NCBI RefSeq assembly: GCF_000739065.1
Contig: NZ_CP009149.1
Location: 372,001-436,000 of the forward strand
Direction: 5' to 3'
DNA length: 64,000 bases
Origin: Methanocaldococcus bathoardescens
GTDB lineage: Archaea > AGJL01 > Methanococci > Methanococcales > Methanocaldococcaceae
Positions 1-61,077 of this stretch are shown piece after piece. A model generated the notes under the pieces. The model was not told where the DNA came from. It searched no databases and was given only the letters and a program-made list of their open reading frames with translations. Numbering within the stretch: the stretch's first letter is position 1; the number at the start of each line of letters is the position of its first letter. The position numbers and the translations under genes are program-made.

Positions 1-635
1 CAGTTTTAATTATAGATGAATTGCAGAAGTTAAAAAATATCTACTTTAACGGAGATGGAAAAGAAGGTAAATCACTATTAAATGAACTATTTAACTTATT
101 TGTGCATTTAACTAAAGTAAGGCATCTATGCCATGTTATCTGCTTAACATCAGATACTTTATTTATTGAAGAGATTTACCGTAACTCAACCTTAAAAAAT
201 ACTTCCGAATATTATCTAATTGATTGGTTAAGAAAAGGAACTATAAGGAATATTTTAAAAGAAGAAGGTTTTAGTGAAGAAGAGATTAATTATGCTTTGA
301 ATTATCTATCTTTACCTTATGAAATCTCCCAGTTGATAAATAATAAAAAACTTGGCTTATCTGTTGAAGAAACTATAAAACAATGGATTAATGTTGAATC
401 AGATGGTTTAAAATATCTAATTGACACTTCCGATTTAAATGAAGAAGAGATTTATAAAGTCCTTTCTAAATTTAGGAATGAAATAAAAATTGACTATAAA
501 AAAGACGTTAAAAAAGAAGAGATGAAGTATATAAAATTTTTAATTGAGAATGAGATTTTGTTCTATGATGTTATAAATGGAATTATTAAGCCGACTTCGA
601 TAATTGAGTGGCATGCTATAAGAGAAATCATTTAG
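1..635 (+). CDS. Archaeal ATPase (Arch_ATPase type), 5' end outside window
   Basis: The reading frame is already open at base 3 and starts with a Walker B-like stretch (VLIIDELQKL) that precedes the first available start codon. The gene therefore begins before the window and the P-loop is not visible. The remaining 210 residues resemble the C-terminal part of the archaeal AAA ATPases (Arch_ATPase) that are multicopy in Methanocaldococcus, including a conserved-looking FSEEEINYALNYL segment and a winged-helix-like end. Role unknown; members of this family are STAND-like NTPases. The last 17 codons are present again, diverged, at 705-758 after two hairpins, so the current C-terminus may not be the original one. 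Confidence 0.7.
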   Translation, partial: VLIIDELQKLKNIYFNGDGKEGKSLLNELFNLFVHLTKVRHLCHVICLTSDTLFIEEIYRNSTLKNTSEYYLIDWLRKGTIRNILKEEGFSEEEINYALNYLSLPYEISQLINNKKLGLSVEETIKQWINVESDGLKYLIDTSDLNEEEIYKVLSKFRNEIKIDYKKDVKKEEMKYIKFLIENEILFYDVINGIIKPTSIIEWHAIREII

Positions 636-638
636 ATT

Positions 639-704
639 TACACCTCCGAGCGTTAGCGAGGAGGTGTTAGGGGATATAGCAATAGGGGGTGTCCCCCTAT
701 GCTT
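639..704 (+). mobile_element. Twin-hairpin element, locus 1
   Basis: Two strong GC-rich hairpins lie in a GC-poor genome. Hairpin B has arms ACACCTCC (640-647) and GGAGGTGT (660-667). Hairpin A has arms ATAGGGGG (682-689) and CCCCCTAT (693-700) with a TGT loop, extended by AGC/GCT around a bulged A. Related B and A hairpins occur in the same order and orientation at the tRNA-Val gene (minus strand, 42009-41936) and beside the CRISPR array (minus strand, 60376-60292). The element sits exactly between two copies of the ATPase gene tail. No protein is encoded. It is probably a small non-autonomous insertion; the mechanism is unknown. Confidence 0.7.
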
Positions 705-758
705 ATAAAGCCAACTTCGATAATTGAATGGTGTGCCATTAAAAAAGTTTTAAAATGA
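705..758 (+). pseudogene. Second, diverged copy of the upstream ATPase gene tail
   Basis: The fragment reads IKPTSIIEWCAIKKVLK and stop. The live gene ends IKPTSIIEWHAIREII and stop (585-635). Several nucleotide differences are at third codon positions (for example CCG/CCA, GAG/GAA, GCT/GCC). This suggests both tails once evolved as coding sequence in different gene copies rather than by recent duplication. The fragment follows hairpin A directly and has no start of its own. Confidence 0.7.
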
Positions 759-41807: not shown

Positions 41808-41912
41808 AAAAACACCTCGACAAATTATTATGGTTATATTGAACTTTGATTAAAAAAGAAAAATCAAAACTCAACAATTTAAAATACTAAAAAATAAATC
41901 GTTAATAATAAA

Positions 41913-41935
41913 TGGTGGGCTCGACGAGATTCAAA
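41913..41935 (-). pseudogene. Decayed second copy of the tRNA-Val 3' end
   Basis: The 23 bp match the CCA, acceptor and T-arm end of the tRNA-Val gene (42010-42032) at 20 of 23 positions; all three changes are G to A on the plus strand. It is followed, towards the tRNA, by hairpins related to those at 639-704. Confidence 0.75.
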
Positions 41936-42009
41936 GCATAGGACTTCGCCCTATTGCTATACCGGGGATGCACTACCTCGCTAATGCTCAGCAGCACCTC
42001 TTTAAGGAT
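41936..42009 (-). mobile_element. Twin-hairpin element, locus 2 (at tRNA-Val)
   Basis: Read on the minus strand after the tRNA: a degenerate hairpin B (GAGCATTAGCGAGG is close to GAGCGTTAGCGAGG at locus 1), then hairpin A (AGC, A, ATAGG ... CCTAT, GCT), then the tRNA-tail copy. Order, orientation and the bulged A match locus 1. Hairpin A spans about 41938-41954. Confidence 0.7.
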
Positions 42010-42085
42010 TGGTGGGCTCGGCGGGATTCGAACCCGCGACCACCGCCTTGTGAGGGCGGCGTCATAGCCACTAGACCACGAGCCC
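42010..42085 (-). tRNA. tRNA-Val (anticodon CAC), CCA encoded
   Basis: Full cloverleaf on the minus strand: acceptor GGGCTCG/CGAGCCC, D arm GTC/GAC, anticodon stem CCGCC/GGCGG with loop CTCACAA (anticodon CAC), T arm GCGGG TTCGAAT CCCGC, discriminator A, then CCA in the DNA (42010-42012). A TATA-like TTTTATAAT about 35-45 bp upstream (near 42120-42130 on the minus strand) is a plausible promoter. Its 3' end is duplicated at 41913-41935. Confidence 0.96.
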
Positions 42086-60217: not shown

Positions 60218-60543
60218 AATACCATCTAAAAAATTGTTAAATTACTATTTTTTAAGGAACTATTTAAAAATATCCGAAATGCTCTAATTCTATAGGGGGC
60301 TTCGCCCTATTGTTATGAACCTTTTAGAAAAAGCTTCACCAAAATCTAACACCTCCTCGCTTACGCTCGGAGGTGTAACTTGGAATTGCTGGGGCATCCC
60401 AATAGGGGCGTAGCCCCTATGGTTGCGGATACCCAGAATAGATTAAGGTAGGGCTTTCAGCCCTACATAATCTCTTTTAATCCATAGAGGGGGCTTTGCC
60501 CCCTCTATTGGTATACTCCCCCATATTTTTACATGTGTATTAT
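60218..60543. repeat. Hairpin cluster between cas2 and the CRISPR array
   Basis: No gene is seen. Five GC-rich hairpins lie within about 220 bp: A-type 60292-60310 (ATAGGG/CCCTAT), B-type 60349-60376 (ACACCTCC/GGAGGTGT), A-type 60402-60420 (ATAGGGGC/GCCCCTAT), then 60448-60466 (GTAGGGCT/AGCCCTAC) and 60484-60508 (ATAGAGGGGGC/GCCCCCTCTAT). The first two, read on the minus strand, repeat the B-then-A order of the elements at 639 and 42009. They sit at the trailer end of the array and could act as transcription stops as well as insertions. Confidence 0.7.
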
Positions 60544-61077
60544 GTTCCCATACCGAAACGGTCTGATTTTAACAAGTGGTATTAAGACACGGTGATTTAG
60601 ACGCTCACATTGATATAACTTTGTTTCCATACCGAAACGGTCTGATTTTAACGATGAGGTTTTGGATGAAAGCTCCACAGAGGAAAGATTTGATGAGGAT
60701 GAGGAAGAAGACGTTTCCATACCGAAACGGTCTGATTTTAACGATGAAATAAACATTATAAACGCAGTTTCAGTTGATGCAAGTTTCCATACCGAAACGG
60801 TCTGATTTTAACAGAATTATACGTCCCTTCTGAATTTACAACATTTGTTTCCATACCGAAACGGTCTGATTTTAACGGTAAGCGTGGATTTTCTCAAGTA
60901 ATTCTGGTGTCATCTTGTTTCCATACCGAAACGGTCTGATTTTAACATGGATAATACCACAATTAAAACAAATACATCAACATGTTTCCATACCGAAACG
61001 GTCTGATTTTAACCTGTTTTGCCATTTAAACTATTATCATTAATATTGTTTCCATACCGAAACGGTCTGATTTTAAC
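60544..61077 (-). CRISPR. CRISPR array, 8 repeats and 7 spacers
   Basis: Repeats are 30 bp at 60544, 60623, 60713, 60783, 60847, 60917, 60984 and 61048 (starts). All are identical except the first, which has T to C at its fourth base. On the minus strand the repeat starts GTTAAAATCAGACCG and ends TATGGAAAC, like the M. jannaschii repeat, so transcription runs leftward with the degenerate repeat at the trailer end. Spacers, left to right, are 49, 60, 40, 34, 40, 37 and 34 bp. The two oldest, trailer-end spacers are unusually long. I saw no spacer match within the window. Confidence 0.98.

Follow-up and report, generated by a model that had tools for sequence, protein, structure and literature searches.

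A twin-hairpin repeat of Methanocaldococcus that lies between duplicated ends of tRNA and protein genes

Why should the 3′ end of a tRNA gene be present twice, with a pair of hairpins between the two copies? In the heat-loving methanogen Methanocaldococcus bathoardescens the last 23 nucleotides of tRNA-Val, TTCGAATCCCGCCGAGCCCACCA (42032–42010), recur at 41935–41913 with 20/23 identity. Positions are those of the window, the whole stretch of 64,000 nt that was analysed; G000 denotes the organism's own genome (1,607,556 bp), and other G numbers the genomes with which it was compared. The displaced tail lies 97 bp past the gene, and the 66 nt that separate the two copies comprise hairpin B, a linker of 11–12 nt and hairpin A, the last containing a single unpaired A within AGC-A-ATAGG (Table 1). 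No other 23-mer on either strand of the 64 kb window matches the tRNA-Val tail at 16 or more positions. A sequence-only reading had pointed to this recurrence, which is confirmed and is unique within the window, and to hairpins B and A arranged and bulged in the same way beside an ATPase-like gene, which is equally borne out.

The duplicated unit at tRNA-Val starts in the T-loop and ends a few bases beyond the gene, giving a length of about 27–31 bp. There is just one tRNA-Val 3′ end in G001 and in G002, whereas G006 carries a larger composite and a decayed copy of the tail, and G008 a different hairpin and a decayed copy. The loops of the hairpins, in the element at 41935–42000 and elsewhere in the family, often have the sequence GCGAAGC, presumably an unusually stable DNA mini-hairpin; this may be relevant to a single-stranded DNA intermediate.

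Table 1. Features of the two twin-hairpin loci and of a composite element, in window coordinates.
Feature	Position	Strand	Basis
ATPase-like gene, left (functional) tail, stop codon 633–635	584–635	+	flank alignment
Twin-hairpin element at ATPase-like gene	637–703	+	CM R1, 70.6 bits
Displaced copy of ATPase-like gene tail	704–752	+	flank alignment
Right (displaced) tRNA-Val 3′-end copy	41906–41934	-	flank alignment
Twin-hairpin element at tRNA-Val, B then A	41935–42000	-	CM R1, 74.3 bits
Hairpin A at tRNA-Val, bulged A at 41955	41935–41958	-	covariation, CM R1
Hairpin B at tRNA-Val	41970–41997	-	covariation, CM R1
Left (functional) target copy, T-loop to CCA and a few bases	42002–42032	-	flank alignment (L031)
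tRNA-Val (CAC), functional target gene	42010–42085	-	ARAGORN; Rfam RF00005, 71 bits
Composite multi-hairpin family member, modules A-C-B-A	60289–60423, up to about 60548	+	CM R1

The hairpin family

The family unit is a non-coding sequence of about 65 bp with two hairpins. Both hairpins covary, with 22 cells of two-sided changes compared with 7.6 in shuffles (0/500; nine-copy model). The fold of the single element sequence is unexceptional (z −0.2), and the claim of structure is thus based upon covariation and copy number, not upon the single-sequence fold. An Rfam scan of the window brought only two tRNAs and the CRISPR repeats to gathering score, the hairpins matching no family.

How widespread is the element? 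The covariance model R1 (CM R1) finds 96 matches in the organism's own genome and hundreds across Methanocaldococcus. It is abundant in most of the 13 other genomes of the genus (81 in G008, of 1,664,970 bp, 66 in G006 and 59 in G007), near absent in G002 and G003, and absent in G011. Beyond the genus it occurs in the sister-family genera g3 (54 matches in G024 and nine in G016) and g5 (four in G028), and there are none in the remaining relatives searched, which are other Methanococcales. A search of genome_contigs confined the exact 22-nt hairpin A to records of Methanocaldococcus/Methanocaldococcaceae, and viral contigs contained none.

Variants of the unit are found. The composite at 60289 directly adjoins a CRISPR array (60544–61077), and two near-identical composites (L008 and L009, at G000:145.6 and 146.5 kb) lie 867 bp apart. 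L048 (G000:18631; CGAGCGAAGCGAGG) and its ortholog in G001, L248 (CTCGCTTCGCTCGG), have the interior of hairpin B in opposite orientations, as though the palindrome were turned over in situ.

We consider that the twin hairpin is probably a small mobile element, presently or formerly active in Methanocaldococcus, that inserts with a long target-site duplication of variable length. The evidence lies largely in the host DNA that flanks it.

Target-site duplication and the choice of target

Copies of the element were oriented B to A, and the left flank of each was aligned to its right flank. The null was provided by left and right flanks taken from different loci (5,700 pairs), and is conservative because some orthologous pairs remain within it; CRISPR-array loci were excluded, as their shared flanks inflate the null. 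Host DNA is directly repeated on the two sides of the element, above the 99% value of the null, at 52 of the 76 non-CRISPR loci, where 0.8 would be expected. The hairpins are therefore found mainly with a flanking copy, against 1% in the null, and the refuting condition set by the sequence-only reading, that most of them would lack such copies, does not hold. No duplication is detectable at the other 24 of the 76 non-CRISPR loci, and this counts against our reading of the element.

The two junctions of the element differ, that at hairpin A being tight and that at hairpin B loose. The right copy lies within 12 nt of hairpin A in 51 of the 52 positive loci, compared with 19% of the null, and begins 0–3 nt past hairpin A in 52 of 54 loci that were profiled. 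Ahead of hairpin B there is unmatched filler of 0–20 or more nucleotides in the 54 loci. The length of the duplication is about 20–72 bp, and typically 35–50; over the 54 loci the matched stretch measures 21–72 bp. The preferred target at the inner junction is roughly W-W-T|T-N-G-R-A-A-A (54 loci), where positions −2 and −1 hardly ever have C, T is found at 0/+1, G at +2 (51%) and A from +4 to +6 (53–66%).

A tight 3′ junction, a loose 5′ junction with filler, a long variable duplication and an A-rich target just inside the junction are all features that would be generated by retrotransposition, in which a structured RNA whose 3′ terminus is hairpin A would be copied into the site by target-primed reverse transcription. 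Against this, the RVT_1 reverse transcriptase was found in none of the 14 Methanocaldococcus genomes. An enzyme lying beyond that model, or since lost, is possible, and we regard retrotransposition as improbable. The Y1 transposase (PF01797) is present in two of the 14 genomes, neither being the organism's own. The phyletic profiles of RVT_1 and Y1 do not track the distribution of the element, and no mobilising gene was found.

Three further classes fit poorly. IS200/IS605 or REP elements (Y1 HUH) insert with no target duplication, in conflict with the long duplications, and PF01797 is confined to two of the 14 genomes. The MITE of a DDE transposon should create a short duplication of fixed length, and casposon or CRISPR-type (Cas1) integration also one of fixed length, whereas the matched lengths here vary over 21–72 bp. 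The long variable duplication thus fits none of the transposition pathways tested.

Into what does the element insert? The targets are the 3′ ends of both protein and tRNA genes, the starts of genes and the end repeats of CRISPR arrays. Where a gene 3′ end is the target, the distance from stop codon to hairpin is 0–47 bp (34 loci, median 7), and these distances are far more clustered than uniform placement (KS, p = 2e-8). Long duplications made at random, with selection alone acting upon them, would not be expected to cluster in this way immediately beyond the stop codon. At about a dozen loci it is a gene start that is hit, the RBS and start codon being inside the duplication. The tRNA targets are Val (in the window and in G006), Ala (G000:1531301), Leu (G008:97739) and Ile (G008:873611), and in tRNA-Val and tRNA-Leu the inner junction falls within the T-loop, GGT|TCRAAT. 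Protein genes nearly always lie on the side of hairpin B; just two genes were seen on that of hairpin A, both of them tRNAs. The element is present in both orientations relative to genes.

Could the hairpins simply be functional RNA, a signal for 3′-end processing or termination, with the tails incidental? Their covariation and their position right after stop codons would be consistent with this. But they precede gene starts as well and can face either way with respect to the gene, the duplicated tails are the rule, and no Rfam family reaches gathering score. We regard this as a very improbable account of the hairpins, for which a secondary role in RNA is possible.

The range of targets also bears on the integrase-type remnant, in which a plasmid or provirus would have integrated at gene 3′ ends, leaving the two tails as attL and attR. 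The presence of tRNA 3′ ends among the targets and the direct repeats formed by the tails are in keeping with such a history. Yet about 65 bp of hairpins alone lie between the tails, with no integrase ORF or cargo and no common att core, and the same hairpins stand at dozens of unrelated genes. CRISPR repeats are struck as well, and the gene starts together with the empty sites described below largely refute the idea, which we find hardly credible. The sequence-only reading had proposed that one element type uses both tRNA and protein gene ends, the tRNA ends serving as attachment sites. The first part of this proposal holds. The second fails in its integrase sense, given that the loci share no att core, that the repeats enclose no integrase and that a different sequence has been duplicated at each locus; the term is also too narrow, because gene starts and CRISPR end repeats are duplicated too.

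The same genes have been struck in several species, some at one and the same junction, where the hairpin subtypes differ, and some at different nucleotides, the latter being independent events. The end of a ferredoxin-like gene (..CIKCGTCFFNCIRVKEAL) is occupied in no fewer than seven genomes (L092, L102, L195, L208, L292, L304 and L311) by elements of different hairpin subtypes, and in some genomes the gene has acquired a new C-terminus from the first bases of the element. At L284 (G001, the ortholog of G000:1237629) a different insert, rich in G+C and in hairpins and distinct from the B-A element, follows right after the stop codon. Many copies (L083–L110, in G009, G010 and G013) lie within the end repeats of CRISPR arrays with part of the repeat duplicated, and were probably inherited together with the arrays; at L096 a spacer-repeat-element-repeat unit is duplicated in tandem.

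Was the second copy created at the time of insertion? When the G000:1208376 locus is used as query, its two halves (1–347 and 420–801) overlap by 43 bp on the uninterrupted sequence G001:1477275–1477317, and they overlap likewise on uninterrupted sequence in G006. A gene start gives a further case: at G000:802457, where G001 has an empty site, about 33 bp have been duplicated and 20 nt of filler is present. Since the empty sites of the sister species hold one copy, the second was made at insertion, and is thus a target-site duplication. Recent insertions have identical copies; these span 50 bp, including 13–15 non-coding bases, at G012:1561106 and about 71 bp in a G004 case. When the sister genome is taken as reference, the two copies are seen to have derived states in common, such as GTT and GGT at G000:1208376 and GAG at G001:383184, and the finding of shared derived states at several loci indicates that the duplication arose in place. 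The identical copies in G004, G012 and G007 could mean either that the repeats interact, with occasional homogenisation, or that the insertions are young.

A different origin for the two tails would be a hybrid-gene invasion, whereby a foreign tail travels with the element and replaces that of the resident gene, the displaced copy then being the resident one. The tails do differ mostly at synonymous sites, as they do in Glomus atp6 and cox2 (PMC3630166). At one locus, G001:400850, it is the functional copy that has diverged, whereas the displaced one matches the sister species exactly, and by sequence comparison this locus seems to fit import better than duplication in place. However, at several loci derived states are common to both copies when compared with the sister species, fresh insertions have tails that are identical down to their non-coding bases, and the element encodes nothing. 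On balance we consider invasion of this kind unlikely.

The displaced copy and the fate of the insertion

If a duplication leaves a spare gene end on the far side of the element, that end might be expected to decay. We compared the two copies at the 34 gene-3′-end loci, where the differences at codon positions 1, 2 and 3 number 25, 17 and 101, respectively. Synonymous differences account for 103 of these 143; the fully neutral expectation is 28%, and we estimate that 41–46% would be synonymous if just one copy were free. Taking gene 3′ ends, gene starts and a second set together, a total that includes a few loci that are the same gene in different species, 133 of 195 differences are at position 3 (p = 3e-10 against 46%) and 132 of 195 (68%) are synonymous. 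The second set alone is weaker, with 13 of 22 at the third position and synonymous and non-synonymous differences at 11:11. By eye, the gene tails flanking the composite at G000:145.6 kb differ at nine sites, all of them synonymous, so that the peptide IQRYIDEKCKLLGL is kept.

Reference to sister species allows changes to be assigned to the displaced copy, and of these 15 are synonymous and seven non-synonymous. A by-eye count of further changes gave 11 and seven, so that 26 of the pooled 40 are synonymous (p about 1e-6). The distribution of differences over codon positions leads us to reject a simple history in which the gene end was duplicated and the spare then decayed neutrally. To judge from their sequences, displaced copies appear to evolve as if they were still coding.

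How might this come about? The long duplication could be produced by a staggered opening of the target. Alternatively a polymerase might copy the element, jump template and resume 20–70 nt back. In either case the insertion would leave the gene with a working end, and a spare copy on the far side. Insertions inside gene ends would then survive because the duplication spans the boundary, so that the gene end stays complete.

The conservation of the spare copy might find its explanation in the loss of the element. M. jannaschii has 10–15 copies of its chromosome during growth (PMC4502288). In a polyploid cell, frequent deletion between the repeats that flank the palindrome might remove the element, and if the spare copy were ruined, cells would keep yielding broken genes after excision. 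The displaced copy might thus keep its protein sequence because excision exposes it to selection. We favour excision in that it suits either orientation and both ends of genes, unlike an explanation at the level of RNA. A reversible gene-end element, which is routinely excised and whose two end copies are used in turn under selection at the protein level, is nevertheless a tentative proposal, and we place it well short of an even chance.

Relation to known elements and significance

Suyama, Lathe and Bork in 2005 reportedly described the MJRE as short palindromic repeats, dispersed and mostly between genes. To our knowledge that work reports no long target duplications, no preference for gene boundaries and no conserved displaced copies. 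The twin hairpin is also palindromic, dispersed and present in multiple copies in Methanocaldococcus, and by comparison of the descriptions the twin hairpins are probably the MJRE elements of M. jannaschii. The palindromic repeats MJRE1–3 of that species are cited (Suyama, Lathe, Bork 2005, FEBS Lett) in a study that notes that MJRE are sometimes fused to coding sequence (PMC2229807).

Small mobile elements elsewhere share some of these properties. YPAL/RU-2 and other MITE-like repeats of bacteria are likewise non-coding, hairpin-forming and mobile, and YPAL adjoins genes with variable duplications of 3–26 bp (PMC2229807). By comparison the duplications here reach about 72 bp and restore gene ends, and no partner with terminal inverted repeats and transposase is known. 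The double-hairpin elements and GC clusters of fungal mitochondria (Paquin 2000; PMC4478555) are also tiny, gene-less, mobile twin-hairpin DNA, with constrained hairpins that merge and shuffle into composites, but the GC clusters make duplications of 2–3 bp (AG, ACT) in contrast to the long ones of the archaeal element (PMC4478555). The layout of gene, tail, element and displaced tail, with mostly synonymous differences, is that of the mobile endonuclease ORFs of Allomyces and Glomus. These bring an endonuclease gene and a foreign tail, whereas the twin hairpin is gene-less and at several loci duplicated its target in situ (PMC3630166). The long duplication, the clustering at gene boundaries, the position of the gene body on the hairpin-B side and the coding-like displaced copies are apparently new.

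Our analysis indicates that duplicated gene tails beside tRNAs in these archaea should not be taken as integrated viruses or plasmids. Tiny gene-less elements can populate a compact genome by way of gene boundaries without killing genes, and their filled and empty sites can be compared across 14 genomes. The conserved displaced gene ends raise the question of whether such insertions are reversible in living cells. If they are, this would be a mobile element without genes that is tolerated since each insertion brings its own spare part.
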